Below, in pieces: positions 20,725 to 30,670 of a stretch of DNA of 64,000 nt (position 1 is its first letter; each line of letters starts with the position of its first letter). The notes beneath the pieces are model-generated. The model was not told where the DNA came from, ran no database searches, and saw nothing but the letters and a program-made list of their open reading frames with translations. The translations under genes were made by a program, and so were the position numbers. Origin of the DNA: Gammaproteobacteria bacterium (GTDB lineage: Bacteria > Pseudomonadota > Gammaproteobacteria > S012-40); assembly GCA_029881255.1 (NCBI GenBank), contig JAOUMY010000007.1:1-64000 (forward strand), given 5' to 3'.

Positions 20725-22215
<1,491 letters not shown>

Positions 22216-22402: not shown

Positions 22403-24430
22403 ATGCACGCCACGATGGAAAAATTTTTCAGCAAGCTGTCGATCAGGGCGAAGTTAAACATCATCATCGCCTTCATATTCCTGGCGGTAATTGCGGTCGC
22501 TACCGTGGTTAACGTCATGAGTGAACGACGTTATATTCTTGAGGTTGCCAAAGAACAGGTAACCGATCTCTCCTATTGGTATTTCGATAGTCTCAATACC
22601 ATGATGCTGACCGGCACCATGGAACAGCGATCTATATTACGTGAAAAGCTATTAGCGCGTTCTCAGGTTAAAGAGGCACGCGTGGTGCGCGGCGAACCGG
22701 TCTCTCATCAGTATGGGCCAGGTCTACCGGAAGAACAGGCGGTGGATGAATTGGACTACAAAGGTTTGCAAGGTGAATCCAGTCTCATCGTTGAAGATAC
22801 ACCTCAAGGTCGTGTCATGACCGTAGTGACCCCATTTAAAGCAAGTGAAAACACCCGCGGCGTGAATTGTCTGCGCTGCCACGATGTGAAGCCCGGCGCG
22901 GTGAATGGCGCGATTCGCGTGTCATATTCATTAGCGCATATGGACGGCAATTCCGCGACCGAAACGATTCGTAATGTGGTAACGAATCTGGTGCTGTTCT
23001 GGGTCGGAATGATACTGGTTAATATGCTGTTACGCCGCTGGGTCATCCTGCCGCTGGGAAAACTCAATCACGCCGTTAGTCAGCGTGGTCAAGGCGATAC
23101 TGGCATACGCGTCGAGCTTGAAGGAAATGATGAATTTACGAGGCTGGGACGCGCCTTTAACACCATGGCTGACAATATCAATGCTGCCAATGATCGTGAA
23201 CACCAGACTGCCGTCGATTTGCAGACCAAGGTCGACGCGATGCTTGAGGTGGTAAACCGTGTAACCGAAGGTGACTTTAACGCGCGCGTACCGTTCTCAG
23301 GTAATGATGCCATCGGTGAGTTGGCGAGTAGTCTGCAAATCATGATTGACTTCATCAACACGTCTATCGAACAAAAGAAATTAGCGGTGGAAACCTTGCA
23401 GAAAAAGGTCGATGACTTACTGCTCATCGTAACTTCTGTTGCGGACGGAGATCTTACCCAGAATATTTCCATCGGTGGCAACGATGCGATCGCGCAATTA
23501 GCGCAAGGCGTACAAACGATGACCTCGCGTCTCAATGAACTCGTCGCGCAAGTGCAACGCTCAGGTGTGCAAGTGACCTCTGCGGCGACTGAAATGGCGG
23601 CAAGCGTTAAGCAAGTGGAGCTTACCGCAGAAAAGAATGCGCTTACCACAGGAGAAATCGCCACTACCGCAACTGAAATCTCCGCAACGTCTAAAGAATT
23701 GCTGGAGACCATGGACGAAGTGGCGGAAGTCGCGGAAAAGGCCTCTAGCTCAGCGGAACAGAGTCACAAGGGGCTGGTGCGCATGGAAGAACTCATGCGT
23801 CAGGTGGTGGAGTTTTCCAGCATCGTATCAGACGAACTGGAAGTGTTGAGCGATAAGGCCACAAATATCAGTGACGTGGTGACGACAATTTCGCGCGTGG
23901 CGGACCAAACCAATTTGTTGTCCTTAAATGCATCCATCGAAGCGGAAAAAGCGGGCGAATATGGCCGCGGTTTTTCCGTCGTTGCCAATGAAATACGACG
24001 TCTCGCAGACCAGTCGGCGGTAGCGACTTTAGACATTGAGCAAATGATAAGAGAGATGCAAGATGCGGTGAACTCAGGTGTGCGCAGTATGGGTAAGTTC
24101 GCCCATCAGTTGCAGGAAAGCGTTGCAGTGGTACAACACGTGAGCCAGGAACAATCAGAGATCATCGATCGCGTGGAAACACTCGGGCCGCGCTTTGAGT
24201 TAGTACACAAGGGAATGCACTCTCAATCTAAACGGGCAGAACAGATTAACGACGTGATGAAGCATCTCAGTGATGCTGCTCGACGCACAGTGGAATCACT
24301 GCATATTTCCTCCGCTGCAATTGAACGGCTGAATAATGCGGCAGGTGGGCTGCACAGTAGTGTGTCGCGATTTAAGGTGAGGACTAAAAACGCTCTGTTC
24401 AAAGATGGCGATAGTGGTGGCTCATCATGA
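22403..24430 (+). CDS. wspA: WspA-like chemoreceptor with CxxCH haem-c motif and multiple HAMP units
   Basis: This 675-aa receptor has TM1 (about 14-36), a periplasmic domain, TM2 (about 193-213), one canonical HAMP and two further cytoplasmic HAMP-like units ('VTEGDFNARVPFSGND', 'VADGDLTQNISIGGND'), then a signalling domain. The hairpin tip reads 'NLLSLNASIEAEKAGEYG', a variant I associate with WspA; the usual form is [15 protein letters not shown]. The periplasmic part contains 'NCLRCHD' (Cys156, Cys159, His160), the c-type haem attachment signature, which suggests gas, redox or haem sensing. It leads a five-gene operon, overlapping the next gene by four bases. The start codon has no strong Shine-Dalgarno; an ATG four codons later is possible. 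Confidence 0.85.
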   Translation: MHATMEKFFSKLSIRAKLNIIIAFIFLAVIAVATVVNVMSERRYILEVAKEQVTDLSYWYFDSLNTMMLTGTMEQRSILREKLLARSQVKEARVVRGEPVSHQYGPGLPEEQAVDELDYKGLQGESSLIVEDTPQGRVMTVVTPFKASENTRGVNCLRCHDVKPGAVNGAIRVSYSLAHMDGNSATETIRNVVTNLVLFWVGMILVNMLLRRWVILPLGKLNHAVSQRGQGDTGIRVELEGNDEFTRLGRAFNTMADNINAANDREHQTAVDLQTKVDAMLEVVNRVTEGDFNARVPFSGNDAIGELASSLQIMIDFINTSIEQKKLAVETLQKKVDDLLLIVTSVADGDLTQNISIGGNDAIAQLAQGVQTMTSRLNELVAQVQRSGVQVTSAATEMAASVKQVELTAEKNALTTGEIATTATEISATSKELLETMDEVAEVAEKASSSAEQSHKGLVRMEELMRQVVEFSSIVSDELEVLSDKATNISDVVTTISRVADQTNLLSLNASIEAEKAGEYGRGFSVVANEIRRLADQSAVATLDIEQMIREMQDAVNSGVRSMGKFAHQLQESVAVVQHVSQEQSEIIDRVETLGPRFELVHKGMHSQSKRAEQINDVMKHLSDAARRTVESLHISSAAIERLNNAAGGLHSSVSRFKVRTKNALFKDGDSGGSS

Positions 24431-25125
24431 ACGAAGAAAAAATAGCAAAGCTGGTAGAGCAGGCCTGTTGGCGTCAAATTGGCGTCTGGAGCAGTAAAGT
24501 AGGGCGATGTGAATATTTGGAAATTGTTCGGCACTGTCGAAACTGCGAGGTGTTTTCTTCGGCTGCGCAAGGGGTGTTTGCGCGTGAAAGTAGTCAGGCA
24601 AAACTGTTTGAACGCTCACTTGACTTATTTCATTCAGGCGAAGTTGTAGCGCGTAGCGAAGGGATTTCTCTGTTGCCATTTCGCTTGGGAACGACGTGGT
24701 TTTGCACCCGACCTAAAGAGGTTATCTCCATAGCCCCCCAAAGCAAAGTGCACAGAATTCCGAATAGGGAGAGTGGCTTTATTCGAGGACTTGTACCGGT
24801 GGATGGCGCGATCTATCCCAGCATATGTTTGAATGTCTTCTTTGGTTTGACCTGTGCTGGCGAGGAGCGTTATCAGGACACAGGCGTATTTGAACGCACG
24901 GTGATTTTGCAAGCAGGTAAAAAACGCCTGGCGGTGTCAGTGGACGAGGTGCGCAACTTACACTATTTCAAGGCGCAGGAGGCAAAACCTCCAGGGCACA
25001 GGTGTAGCGACAAGTTACGTCCATACGTGAAACAGGAATTCGTTTTTGATTCCTATCTTGATGAAGTCGTTTTCGAACTGGATATGGAGTCAATTGGTCT
25101 GCAATACCTGAAGGCTTTGACATGA
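24427..25125 (+). CDS. wspD: WspD-like CheW coupling protein
   Basis: This 232-aa protein has a CheW fold over about residues 75-232 ('LLPFRLGTTWFC', 'HRIPNRESGFIRGLVPVDGAIYP'-like strands, 'KRLAVSVDEV'). In front is a Cys-rich segment with 'CWRQIGVWSS' and 'VRHCRNCEVF', which I recognise as the WspD N-terminal pattern. It should couple the receptor to the CheA-like kinase. It overlaps both neighbours by ATGA, so translation is coupled throughout. The four N-terminal cysteines are spaced as if to bind metal (inference). Confidence 0.85.
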   Translation: MNEEKIAKLVEQACWRQIGVWSSKVGRCEYLEIVRHCRNCEVFSSAAQGVFARESSQAKLFERSLDLFHSGEVVARSEGISLLPFRLGTTWFCTRPKEVISIAPQSKVHRIPNRESGFIRGLVPVDGAIYPSICLNVFFGLTCAGEERYQDTGVFERTVILQAGKKRLAVSVDEVRNLHYFKAQEAKPPGHRCSDKLRPYVKQEFVFDSYLDEVVFELDMESIGLQYLKALT

Positions 25126-27359
25126 GTGGAAACGGTGGAGATCTCAGTGATTTTTCCATGCTTGATCTGTTTCGCATGGAGCTCGACAGTCAGACAAATA
25201 TTCTCAATCAGGGTTTGCTTGCGCTGGAGAACCAAAATGCATCGGCAAAGGAACTTGAACGGTTGATGAGAGCTGCACACTCTATTAAAGGCGCCGCACG
25301 CATGGTGAATGTCAATAGCGTTGTGCGAATTTCTCATGTATTGGAAGAGTGCTTTGTGCAAACTCAGCAACGCAATCTGAGACTCAGTCATGATGATATC
25401 GACGCATTGTTGGGCAGCATAGACGTTTTGTGTGAAATTGCCAAACTTCCCGACAGTGATATGACCAGTTGGGATGCAAAATACGAAATTCAAATTGGCA
25501 CAATAGAATCAAACTTGTTGGCAATAGCGAATAAGAATAAACGAGATTCAGTGGTTGTGACCAGTAATGATATAGATGCCCGGCTGTTACGTGATGAGGC
25601 GAATAAACAGTACGCGAAGGAAACGCTATTAAATGAGGAACGGAACACACTGCGAGTAGATGTAAATCGTATCAATCGCATTCTAAGCCTTGCCGGTGAA
25701 TCGCTGGTAGAAAGTCACCGCCTGAACGACATGATGGAAACGTTCACCCAGTTCAAACAACAGCAAAATCGCTTAATGGATGAGTTGAATCGCCTGCGTG
25801 TGACAATGCGAGATGCGCCGATAAGCGGTTTAGTAAAGTCGCAATTTCAAAAATGCTATACGTCTGCCATGCATATGCGGCACACCTTGAATGAAAGGAT
25901 TGTTGAGCTTGATAGTTTCGATCGCCGCAATGCGCTATTGATCGAACGCCTGCATGAGGAAGTACGATCTACGCGCATGCGTCCGGTATCGGCTCTTGTA
26001 CATGCTTTTCCTCGTATTGTAAGGGATCTGGGAAGAACGCTGAGTAAAAAAGTCAAACTGCATATGTCTGGTTTGGCGACACTCGTGGATCGTGAGGTAT
26101 TGGAACGTATAGACACGTCATTGAAACACCTGATTCTAAACGCGGTTGATCATGGCATTGAGGACGAATCGACCAGGTTGAATATGGGTAAAACTGCTGA
26201 GGGTCATATTACGCTTGAAGTGTCACAGAGCGCTGGAATGTTGTTTATTGTCGTCGAAGATGATGGCAAAGGGGTGGATCTTAGTGCCTTAAAACGGAAG
26301 GTAGTTAAGAAAGGAATTTCGAAAATGGATGTTCTTGACGATATGGATTCAAGCTCTTTGTTGTCGTTTTTGTTTATGGCTGGATTTAGTACGCGTAGCC
26401 GGACTGATACTCTGTCCGGGAGGGGAGTAGGTCTTGATTTGGTGCGTGAAACGATAGAGGGACTGGGAGGGAGCATATTTGTAAGTAGTCGCCCGGGGGA
26501 GGGAACGCGTTTTCAGTTACTTCTACCCCAAACAGTTTCCATTATGCGAATTCTATTGGTGGAAGCGGCAGGTGAGTTATATGGTTTTCCCTTGTCGCGA
26601 GTACACCGCGTGACGCGGATACAACGACAGGATATCGCAAAGAATTTACACGGCTATTGTTGCTATTTTGATGACGGCACGTTTCAGTTAATCAGTATTG
26701 ATCAACTACTGGGTGAAAGTGTGCCAGAGCTTGCTCCAGAGCTGGACGTAGTCTTAATTGATCAGGCGGATCAAAAAATCGCGATTATCGTCGACAATAT
26801 ACTTGGACAGCGCGAAGTCTCGGTACAACGTCTTGATCCTGATCTTGGAGACATTCCAGGTGTTGATTCCGCGGCTATACTCGATGACGGTGAACTGACC
26901 TTGATTTTCAGTTCTCACGCACTGGCTGGGCTTTACAGCGATTTGAATGCAGAACGCAAGATTAATCTTGCCATGCCTCGGCGTCGTGGCGAGCGATACC
27001 TGCTTTTGATATGCGATTCTCCTACAACACGTGAAACGGCAAGACGTTTTTTGGTTCGACACGACTATCAAGTGATTACGATGCGCTATTCAGACAGTGT
27101 GGTTGATCGAATCAGAGGACAGACACCTGATGGCGTCATTGTCGGAACTGACATAGGGGAGGACTCGCTGCGAAAATTGTTTTTTGTATTGAACAAGGAT
27201 GAATCTTTGCGTCATACACGCACCATGATGTTAGTCGATGATATGGACAAGTCTTGGTTGAATGAAGATCAATGGGCAATGCCCCAGTTGAATACGCGAG
27301 ACACGGTTCGACAGGCCTTTTTACATACGGTGAACGCAATGTTGGCAGGAAAGCATTAA
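25122..27359 (+). CDS. wspE: WspE-like CheA hybrid histidine kinase
   Basis: This 745-aa protein has an HPt domain with phospho-accepting His53 in 'AAHSIKGAARMV', a dimerisation and linker region, a CheA-type ATPase ('LKHLILNAVDHGIE', 'VVEDDGKGVDL', 'LSGRGVGLDLV'), a CheW-like regulatory domain and a C-terminal receiver-like domain. The receiver begins 'YLLLICDSPTTRE' but its central strand reads 'DGVIVGTDIGED' and the usual Lys near the end is absent, so it may not be phosphorylated. The kinase should phosphorylate WspR and WspF in response to the receptor. It shares overlapping ends with both neighbours. Confidence 0.9.
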   Translation: MSGNGGDLSDFSMLDLFRMELDSQTNILNQGLLALENQNASAKELERLMRAAHSIKGAARMVNVNSVVRISHVLEECFVQTQQRNLRLSHDDIDALLGSIDVLCEIAKLPDSDMTSWDAKYEIQIGTIESNLLAIANKNKRDSVVVTSNDIDARLLRDEANKQYAKETLLNEERNTLRVDVNRINRILSLAGESLVESHRLNDMMETFTQFKQQQNRLMDELNRLRVTMRDAPISGLVKSQFQKCYTSAMHMRHTLNERIVELDSFDRRNALLIERLHEEVRSTRMRPVSALVHAFPRIVRDLGRTLSKKVKLHMSGLATLVDREVLERIDTSLKHLILNAVDHGIEDESTRLNMGKTAEGHITLEVSQSAGMLFIVVEDDGKGVDLSALKRKVVKKGISKMDVLDDMDSSSLLSFLFMAGFSTRSRTDTLSGRGVGLDLVRETIEGLGGSIFVSSRPGEGTRFQLLLPQTVSIMRILLVEAAGELYGFPLSRVHRVTRIQRQDIAKNLHGYCCYFDDGTFQLISIDQLLGESVPELAPELDVVLIDQADQKIAIIVDNILGQREVSVQRLDPDLGDIPGVDSAAILDDGELTLIFSSHALAGLYSDLNAERKINLAMPRRRGERYLLLICDSPTTRETARRFLVRHDYQVITMRYSDSVVDRIRGQTPDGVIVGTDIGEDSLRKLFFVLNKDESLRHTRTMMLVDDMDKSWLNEDQWAMPQLNTRDTVRQAFLHTVNAMLAGKH

Positions 27360-28387
27360 TGCGAATTGGAATCGTCAATGATGTGCCATTAGTTTCTGAA
27401 GGATTACGCAGGGTATTAATGCGTCATACGGAATTCGATGTCGCGTGGCTAGCCTGTGACGGTCAGGAAGCCGTAGATAAATCAGGCATGGATCTGCCAG
27501 ATGTCATTTTAATGGATTTAATCATGCCGGTAATGGACGGGGTGGAGGCTACACGGCAAATCATGCAGAACAATCCCTGTCCGATACTGATTGTTACCGC
27601 CTCAGTTGATGAGAATATTGCGATGGTATTCGACGCGATGAGTCACGGTGCGCTCGACGTTGTTACCACGCCTTTAGCCTGTACCGGAGACCCGGATCTG
27701 GGTACAGACGAGTTTCTGACTAAGATCAAACTCGTGCATGCCGCGGCTATGGCGACTACAACTCAGTTAACATCCAAGCGCGCGCAGAGTGCCAGTATGG
27801 ATGCGTGTATGGAGGCCACCGGCCTGGTGGCAATAGGCGCTTCTTCTGGCGGCCCACAGGCGATTTTGAATGTATTAAATAGAATGTCGCGGAATTTGCC
27901 AGTCGCTATTGTTGTCGTACAACATATGGACGAAAAATTTGTCCCCAGCTTTATAGAGTGGCTACGTCAGCAACTGGGTCGGCCAGTACAGCGGGCTGTG
28001 GAAGGGAGTAAACTCTGTCAGGGGCGAATTTACGTTGCAGTGACCTCGGATCATTTGGTGCTTAATCAGGACCGGCACCTGGCGTATACCACTTTGCCGC
28101 TAGACTATCCTTATCGACCTTCTGTCGATATTTGGTTAAACAGCGTGGTGGAAAACTGGAAGCGCCCCGCGTGTGGTGTATTGCTGACCGGTATGGGAAG
28201 TGATGGTGCCACGGGATTGAGAAACATGCGGGAGAATGGTTATTACACCATTACGCAGGATAGGCAGACCAGCACGGTTTATGGAATGCCCGGTGCTGCG
28301 CGAGCACTTGACGCAGCAATAGAAGAATTACCGCTGGAACAAATCGGTCCAGCGGTCGAACGTTATATGGCAGCAAGAGTTAGATAA
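27359..28387 (+). CDS. wspF: WspF-like CheB methylesterase response regulator
   Basis: From the ATG at 27359, which overlaps the wspE stop (TAATG), the protein is 342 aa. It has a receiver domain with phospho-acceptor Asp in 'LMDLIMPVMDG' and a methylesterase domain with nucleophile Ser162 in 'GASSGG', His in 'VQHMDEKF' and Asp in 'GMGSDGATG'. It should remove methyl groups or deamidate receptor glutamates to reset WspA; loss of WspF in Pseudomonas locks the pathway on. No methyltransferase partner is encoded in this operon. Longer in-frame starts back to 27272 lie inside wspE and lack homology. Confidence 0.92.
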   Translation: MRIGIVNDVPLVSEGLRRVLMRHTEFDVAWLACDGQEAVDKSGMDLPDVILMDLIMPVMDGVEATRQIMQNNPCPILIVTASVDENIAMVFDAMSHGALDVVTTPLACTGDPDLGTDEFLTKIKLVHAAAMATTTQLTSKRAQSASMDACMEATGLVAIGASSGGPQAILNVLNRMSRNLPVAIVVVQHMDEKFVPSFIEWLRQQLGRPVQRAVEGSKLCQGRIYVAVTSDHLVLNQDRHLAYTTLPLDYPYRPSVDIWLNSVVENWKRPACGVLLTGMGSDGATGLRNMRENGYYTITQDRQTSTVYGMPGAARALDAAIEELPLEQIGPAVERYMAARVR

Positions 28388-28401: not shown

Positions 28402-29418
28402 ATGTCAGGCGAAATTCAAAAGACACATGACGCACAGAAAACCATTGTGATGCTGGTAGACGATCAGTCTATTGTTGCGGAAGCTGTGCGTCGTATGCTG
28501 GCCGACGACCCGGAGATCGAATTTCACTATTGTGATCAACCGACGCGGGCAATTGATTTCGCCACGGAGTTACGCCCTACTGTCATATTGCAGGATCTGG
28601 TTATGCCTGATCTCGACGGTATTTCTCTGGTACGACACTATCGCTCAAATTCTGTAACAGCAAATGTGCCGGTCATAGTTTTATCGACCAAGGAAAATCC
28701 GAAGGATAAAAGCCTGGCCTTTAGCGTGGGGGCAAATGATTACCTGGTTAAACTTCCGGACAAAATAGAATTGATCGCGCGAGTGAAAGCGCATTCACGC
28801 AGCTATCTCACACAATTGGAGCGTGACGAAGCATATCGTCAGTTACAGGAATTGCAGGCTCAGTTGGAAGAGAGTAACGCGACTCTGCAATTGCTTTCCT
28901 GCCTGGATGGTTTGACAGGAATTGCCAATCGTCGTCGATTCGACGAGTTTATGAAAAATGAATGGAAGCGTGCACGTCGCGAACAATCCGTATTGTCGAT
29001 GATCTTGGTCGACGTGGATATGTTTAAGGCATATAACGATAACTACGGCCATCAACAGGGTGACGATACCTTGAAAAGAGTCGCCAACACACTAAGCGCG
29101 GTGCTCAATCGCCCGGCGGACTTGCTGGCGCGTTATGGTGGAGAAGAGTTCGTCGTCGTCTTACCTGACACCGATCTGGACGGCGCATACAAAATGGCTG
29201 AGCGTTTTCGTGGTAATGTGATGGACCTTAACATTCCACATGACTATTCAACCCAGAAAATTGTGACGATAAGCGCAGGTATTGCGGCGTGCAAGCCGTC
29301 TGAAAAAGAGAATACACCTGAACGACTACTCGAAAAAGCAGACAAGGCTCTGTATGCGGCAAAGGAACAGGGAAGAAATCGGATAGTTTCTTACAACGAT
29401 TTGAACAAGAAGAAATAG
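28402..29418 (+). CDS. wspR: WspR-like REC-GGDEF diguanylate cyclase
   Basis: This 338-aa protein makes c-di-GMP from two GTP. The receiver domain has 'MLVDDQ', phospho-acceptor Asp65 in 'ILQDLVMPDLDG', and 'VLSTKE' and 'YLVKLPD'. A coiled linker leads to a GGDEF domain with active site GGEEF (246-250) and an intact inhibitory I-site R-P-A-D (237-240) five residues upstream. Sequence along the whole length, including 'DYLVKLPD' and 'KAYNDNYGHQQGDD', matches Pseudomonas WspR. It closes the operon, 15 bases after wspF, and is the predicted output of the cluster. Confidence 0.94.
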   Translation: MSGEIQKTHDAQKTIVMLVDDQSIVAEAVRRMLADDPEIEFHYCDQPTRAIDFATELRPTVILQDLVMPDLDGISLVRHYRSNSVTANVPVIVLSTKENPKDKSLAFSVGANDYLVKLPDKIELIARVKAHSRSYLTQLERDEAYRQLQELQAQLEESNATLQLLSCLDGLTGIANRRRFDEFMKNEWKRARREQSVLSMILVDVDMFKAYNDNYGHQQGDDTLKRVANTLSAVLNRPADLLARYGGEEFVVVLPDTDLDGAYKMAERFRGNVMDLNIPHDYSTQKIVTISAGIAACKPSEKENTPERLLEKADKALYAAKEQGRNRIVSYNDLNKKK

Positions 29419-29446: not shown

Positions 29447-30670
29447 TTAGTTTTTCTTTAGTTTAAACTGATTAATCAGCGTTTTGAGCTCGCTAGTCAT
29501 GTTCGACAGCTGGTGGGATTTTTCCAGGGATGAACTGGCATCGTTGACTACCTTTTTAGCCATATCAGATATTTCGTGAGTGATATCACTCAAACTCTCA
29601 TTCGATTGACGATGTATTTGAGATGCACTTTCGATACGCCGGTTTAGTACGGCAATTTTCTCGATCTCGCTCATCATCGCAATCAGATCTTTTGCCACCG
29701 AAGAAACGGTTTCCGAATTCTCATGTGCAAGCATCTTGGCGTTCTCCATCGAGCTTACCGCGACATTGGATTTACTTAGTAGTTGATCGATTATATTTTT
29801 GATTTCGGTTGTGGATTCATGTGTGCGTGATGCCAGGGTACGTACTTCATCGGCGACTACGGCAAAGCCTCTGCCTTGTTCTCCAGCGCGTGCGGCTTCG
29901 ATAGCGGCATTTAGCGCAAGTAAATTGGTTTGTTCTGCGATATCGCTAATGACGTTGATGACTAGTCCTACTTCATTGCTCTGTTGCGCCAGAGCCTCGA
30001 TGCTGTCAGCTACTCGGGTAATCTCTTCCGAGAGTTGCGTGATAGAACGGGTTGTTTGTTCCAGATGATGGCTGCCTTGACTGGCTTTTTCCTCGGTCGT
30101 GTTGGCGTTTTCCGAAGCGGCAACCGCATTTTCGTTGATTTCAACAATACCGCGTAGCATTTCCTGTATTGAGTGGTTGGTAACCTTGCTCTTCTCAAGT
30201 TGCTGACTGGCGCTATTTTGTGTTGTGCGGGCCAGATTCGATACCGCATCTGTTGTTTCCGCTACACTAGCCGTCTGTTTCTGAATCTTGCCGATAATTT
30301 CGCGAAAGGTTTCCTGCATGGTATTGGTGCTTTCGGCCAGATCTCCAATCAGATCATCGTATTTAAAGTCGCAGCTTTGTGTGAGATCTTTTCGACCAAT
30401 GGCTTGTGAGATGCTTCTGATTTCGCGTAATGGCGAGAGCAGGATGCGGTTGACCAGATAGAAATTGACAATGCCAATGGTCACTCCCGCGAGTATGCAG
30501 CCGATAGTAAACCATACCAACATTCCAGGTTTCCATTCGACGAACATGGCGGCATAAAATGGAAAAACAGCGCCCATGAACAATCCGAAGCCATAACACG
30601 CATACATAAGGCGCGCGAGCAGACTTTTTCTAGGGTTGCGAAGAAGAATCCAACTGCGACTTTGTTTCAC
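29447..30670 (-). CDS. Methyl-accepting chemotaxis protein without a large sensor domain
   Basis: This 407-aa protein has two membrane helices separated by only a few residues (about 20-70), a HAMP domain and a full receptor signalling domain with the standard tip '[18 protein letters not shown]' and '[15 protein letters not shown]'. With almost no periplasmic loop, it may sense membrane state or an intracellular cue. It converges on the wsp-like operon with 28 bases between stops. It ends '[10 protein letters not shown]', with no CheR-docking pentapeptide. Confidence 0.93.

Follow-up and report, generated by a model that had tools for sequence, protein, structure and literature searches.

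Periplasmic c-type haem chemoreceptors and Wsp systems have both been described before. In the Geobacter receptors, the axial haem ligands are His143 and water in GSU0582, and His144 and Met60 in GSU0935. CO and NO displace Met60, and a redox-linked spin change involving Met60 has been reported for GSU0582 and GSU0935 (PMC8396549). DcrA of Desulfovibrio vulgaris is likewise a periplasmic c-type haem chemoreceptor, for redox and oxygen, and the same review gives it no cyclase link (PMC8396549). A family of single Cache domains, sCache_heme (DUF3365/Tll0287, PF11845), has been defined by its Cache fold and CxxCH motif, with MCP and cyclase outputs, and a signalling-type member bound NO tightly (PMC12889525). 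The preprint that defines it does not mention Wsp (PMC12889525), and we found no report of GSU0582 or GSU0935 in a Wsp cluster.

The Wsp system of Pseudomonas is encoded by wspABCDEFR. Gene clusters of this kind produce cyclic di-GMP, a biofilm signal. The sensor of P. aeruginosa WspA is a 4HB_MCP_1 domain, and a 2022 review calls the stimulus of WspA a mystery (PMC8846402). A 2021 survey covered 794 Wsp clusters, among which Pseudomonas was the sole gammaproteobacterial genus; the sensor region of WspA was the most variable part, and haem was unmentioned (PMC8552884). Single earlier notices of Wsp concern Thiolapillus (PMC4136832) and the Zetaproteobacteria (PMC5513912). We found no report of a haem-c WspA in the open full texts searched, a scope outside which most subscription papers fall. 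Thus, haem-c (sCache) chemoreceptors and Wsp systems are known already, and the new element, as far as we found, is their combination.

In this study, we analysed a chemoreceptor gene at 22403..24430 (+) of the window, which is the whole stretch of 64,000 nucleotides under analysis. The 675-aa product was identified as a WspA-like receptor by its Pfam HAMP and MCPsignal matches, the homologues of its sensor and its WspA-like signalling domain. A periplasmic single-Cache haem domain is predicted at about aa 39-191 (22517..22975, +) from the AlphaFold model, the folds of 3b42 and 5b82, and the profile match to 3b47. It is followed by a Pfam HAMP domain at aa 209-260 (23027..23182, +), the best of three such stretches, and by the MCP signalling domain at aa 442-623 (23726..24271, +), a Pfam match that is WspA-like by comparison. 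The earlier note had pointed to NCLRCHD at 22865-22885, between two membrane helices on the periplasmic side and with no other cysteines nearby. The predicted haem-c attachment motif, CLRCH, occupies aa 156-160 (22868..22882, +), inside that span. In the receptor model, helices 14-70 and 178-229 contain the two hydrophobic membrane spans that flank the sensor domain; with HAMP following at 209-260, this places CLRCH in the periplasm, as had been proposed. The remark on cysteines holds for the entire 675-aa protein, in which Cys156 and Cys159 are the only ones. Just upstream of wspA, the window encodes a putative lipoprotein-like protein of 496 aa (20725-22215, +) with a long Thr-Gly-rich repeat of TGTGTD units and zero Pfam matches.

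The conservation of the motif was examined by searching the N-terminal 218 aa of the receptor against 37 near relatives and against a same-class sample of 369 genomes, which gave 76 homologous domains. Pairwise identity in their periplasmic part averaged 40% and fell to a minimum of 16%. All 76 domains carried CxxCH, and the only invariant positions of the alignment were Met68, Pro144, Cys156, Cys159, His160 and Gly169; the two residues between the motif cysteines were variable. A profile search found the sensor domain in 107 of 398 genomes of the phylum. From these phylum-wide loci and the window's own genome, we aligned a wider set of 50 distinct proteins, including the window protein, which have MCP or cyclase-like outputs and come partly from other classes. 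Met68, Pro144 and CxxCH were invariant in 50/50. Variation of the motif among orthologues, the check set out in the earlier note, was thus not seen for Cys156, Cys159 or His160 in sets gathered by similarity, which may have left out strongly diverged copies that lack haem. When the sensor domain was shuffled with its own two cysteines retained, CxxCH arose in 0.03% of shuffles. This frequency and the invariance in both protein sets indicate that CxxCH is not a chance occurrence.

The kinship of the sensor was then traced by profile and by fold. A phmmer search of PDB with the single receptor protein gave nothing useful, and GSU0582 was reached only by the family profile, which matched 3b47, the haem-c receptor domain of that protein, at E 1.5e-4. 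This alignment places CxxCH on CxxCH and His160 on His143. Met68 (22604..22606, +) aligns with residue 26 of the 3b47 chain; this residue corresponds to Met60 provided that chain residue His109 is His143. The sensor was modelled by AlphaFold with pLDDT 95. Foldseek matched the receptor model to 3b42 (GSU0935, compared at fold level) with an E value of 1e-5. With VIA-align, the Z values were 12.5 for WalK, 10.1 for CitA, 10.0 for DcuS and 9.6 for Tll0287 (5b82; rmsd 3.5 over 120 residues). Z values in this middling range are often seen, and we therefore base the fold assignment on the fold and profile matches combined. On this basis, the modelled sensor domain is a single Cache fold resembling GSU0935 and Tll0287. 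GSU0582 and GSU0935 (3b47, 3b42) resemble the window receptor in the whole arrangement of membrane span, periplasmic Cache/PAS-like haem domain, membrane span, HAMP and MCP, with CxxCH and a ligand Met at matching places, although they are distant in sequence, as the E value shows. The comparison with DcrA is by description only. Tll0287 ligates its haem by Cys/His, whereas the window receptor has an invariant Met. The receptor also lies below the match limit of PF11845; neither PF11845 nor PF21563 matched it at E 0.01, and among the 76 domains they matched 5 and 9, respectively.

These results suggest that the cysteine pair is kept for haem, as the earlier note had thought likely; the invariance and the kinship with GSU0582 and GSU0935 both support it. 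The kinship with Geobacter haem-c PAS receptors proposed there also stands, except for the PAS label, because the current classification places this domain class under single Cache (PMC12889525). From its sequence, the receptor is predicted to attach haem covalently, with Met68, invariant in 76/76 and 50/50, as the likely sixth ligand.

The genome that carries the window also encodes a probable route for haem attachment. A profile search found ccmE on contig C5, and the adjacent run of ccm-like genes is ordered and sized like a ccm operon; the names of the other ccm genes were assigned from order, size and sequence start. Directly beside this run lies a gene with 11 CxxCH motifs (L125:10021-12513, -). 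The same genome encodes a second haem-sCache protein (L208 / L209, G000:C11, about 36.5-37.3 kb), which has CLSCH and a matching Met, and whose later part resembles the WspR cyclase.

The receptor gene is the first of a cluster with the order wspA-wspD-wspE-wspF-wspR. A CheW-like coupling protein in the WspD position (24427..25125, +) was assigned by Pfam CheW and synteny, and the CheA-like kinase WspE (25122..27359, +) by Pfam Hpt, H-kinase_dim, HATPase_c and CheW. The CheB-like methylesterase WspF, a Pfam assignment, lies at about 27359..28387 (+), with its start placed at an ATG overlapping the wspE stop; when aligned to the longest wspF ORF, 27272-28387, the NCBIfam CheB model starts at aa 30. 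The last gene, at 28402..29418 (+), encodes the receiver-GGDEF diguanylate cyclase WspR, assigned by Pfam and by its best PDB matches. These were full-length matches to two WspR structures, 3i5a (E 9.8e-112) and 3bre (E 3.6e-105), which scored far above other cyclases. The protein contains GGEEF and the inhibitory-site motif RPAD. The Wsp-type cyclase output named in the earlier note is thus borne out by synteny and structure matches. Both the haem assignment and the Wsp assignment of the receptor are strong. Convergent with wspR, the window encodes an additional HAMP-MCP receptor of 407 aa (29447-30670, -).

Like Pseudomonas WspABCDEFR, the cluster has a WspA-like signalling domain and, in matching order, CheW, CheA, CheB and WspR. 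It differs in lacking wspB and wspC, in a degenerate WspE receiver and in the sensor, which is a haem single Cache here and 4HB_MCP_1 in P. aeruginosa. As wspB and wspC are missing from the cluster, it is a reduced Wsp-type system. Neither gene was present in the window's cluster or in six same-family loci with context, and wspF was seen in the window and in one other of these loci. Most relatives outside the family have, between wspA and wspD, a CheW gene (wspB) and one for a CheR bearing C-terminal repeats (wspC). The alignment shows that the window protein and at least one relative have lost the acceptor Asp of the C-terminal WspE receiver, which most relatives keep. The methylation-helix stretch QQEAT, common to other receptors, is altered in the window's family. 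The missing wspB and wspC, the receiver decay and the changed QQEAT stretch together suggest, as a reading of gene content, that methylation-based adaptation has been lost in this family. CheR might act in trans; the genome has three CheR genes, all on a different contig and within other clusters.

We next considered how often the haem sensor and Wsp occur together. We counted 37 haem-WspA genes, defined as encoding the haem domain together with a WspA-like signalling domain; 32 of them came from the sample of 369 same-class genomes and fell into 13 families as coded. The cluster runs to wspR in 32/37, and the other five are truncated by the end of the contig or of the locus. Pairing of the haem receptor with Wsp is therefore recurrent in dozens of related bacteria and is not a one-off. 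In the loci examined from the phylum's other classes, a limited sample, no Wsp cluster was seen; the fusion partners of the haem domain there were other MCPs or cyclase-like proteins. All of 25 WspA-like receptors without the haem domain also lacked CxxCH (22 from the same class, and three from Verrucomicrobiota loci that served as comparison only). When 62 signalling domains were placed in a quick tree, a single branch separated haem from haem-free receptors (SH-aLRT 95), and the sensor state changed once, compared with about 20 times in shuffles. As many branches of this tree are long and its root is uncertain, one gain and one loss of the haem sensor are both possible. The phage search gave no match, and the plasmid search gave a single one, to a chromosome-sized Aeromonas caviae record at 37% identity. 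Two Wsp clusters (L164 and L171) contain a tandem pair of WspA-like receptors with differing sensor domains. Another cluster (L162:10381-16644) looks decayed or poorly assembled, with wspC, wspD and wspE split over several ORFs and wspR not seen.

We propose that the window encodes a Wsp system in which a haem-c sCache WspA controls cyclic di-GMP through redox- or gas-driven release and rebinding of Met68, and we consider this proposal as a whole probable. The periplasmic single-Cache domain of WspA would hold one covalently bound c-type haem, with His160 of CLRCH as the proximal ligand and Met68, on the first periplasmic helix, as a probably labile sixth ligand. A redox change of the iron or the binding of a diatomic gas, most likely NO, would release Met68 or let it rebind, and the first helix would shift against TM2. 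HAMP would relay this shift to the signalling tip, which would set the WspE kinase and, through WspR phosphorylation, the cyclic di-GMP level and how the cells attach. The sequences and the model show the motif with its invariance, an unvarying Met where the known ligand sits, the fold and a conserved cluster with WspR as output; we infer that haem is loaded, that Met68 ligates it, what the stimulus is, in which direction the response goes and what phenotype follows. NO and redox are both candidate stimuli between which sequence cannot separate, and O2 is less likely, following PMC12889525. Cytochrome cd1 nitrite reductase was not found in the genome, so NO gains no support from this enzyme, although its absence is weak evidence on the ligand.

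The closest competitor to gas-driven switching is a purely periplasmic redox sensor, in which Met68 would sit on ferrous iron and leave upon oxidation, and gases would be physiologically irrelevant. The redox-linked spin change with Met60 in GSU0582 and GSU0935 (PMC8396549) and the invariance of Met68 in our alignments agree with such a sensor; the tight hold on NO by the tested signalling-type sCache_heme protein (PMC12889525) speaks against it. We give this reading somewhat less than an even chance. A CxxC pair could in principle form a zinc site or a redox disulfide with haem absent, but the PDB relatives hold haem c at the same place, the genome has ccm genes, and an invariant His immediately follows the second Cys. 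We rejected the zinc or disulfide reading on the invariance of His160 and regard it as very improbable.

A bound haem may also be secondary, with the membrane spans mainly sensing surface contact or envelope stress and the haem only tuning the response. The sensor domain of P. aeruginosa WspA is replaceable with surface sensing retained (PMC8846402), and this tolerance means that haem may only modulate, or add to, membrane-based sensing. Many same-class WspA-like receptors bear other sensors, which fits the same idea. The haem residues, however, are strictly invariant across a large divergence, which points to a necessary role for the haem, and we hold a merely tuning role to be unlikely.

Returning to the haem-c WspA as the main sensor, we tentatively suggest that a branch of Wsp lies under a haem-c gas or redox receptor and not a surface sensor, and that the window's family, without WspB and WspC and often without WspF, has become a non-adapting, haem-gated cyclic di-GMP switch; we would not put this beyond a possibility. 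The Wsp clusters found here in many families of what are very probably Gammaproteobacteria widen the range given in the 2021 survey (PMC8552884). The class was deduced from Ffh, which is 70% identical to the E. coli protein and has gammaproteobacterial best hits, and from a shared gene neighbourhood of yfjD-like, ypjD-like and ffh. A cofactor that can be defined makes this Wsp receptor a handle on the system, with ligation and redox state read by spectrum and output read as cyclic di-GMP. Through a system so far known for surface sensing, biofilm formation may come under the control of a redox or gas cue, and a chemosensory array would then connect NO or the redox state of the periplasm with biofilm decisions.
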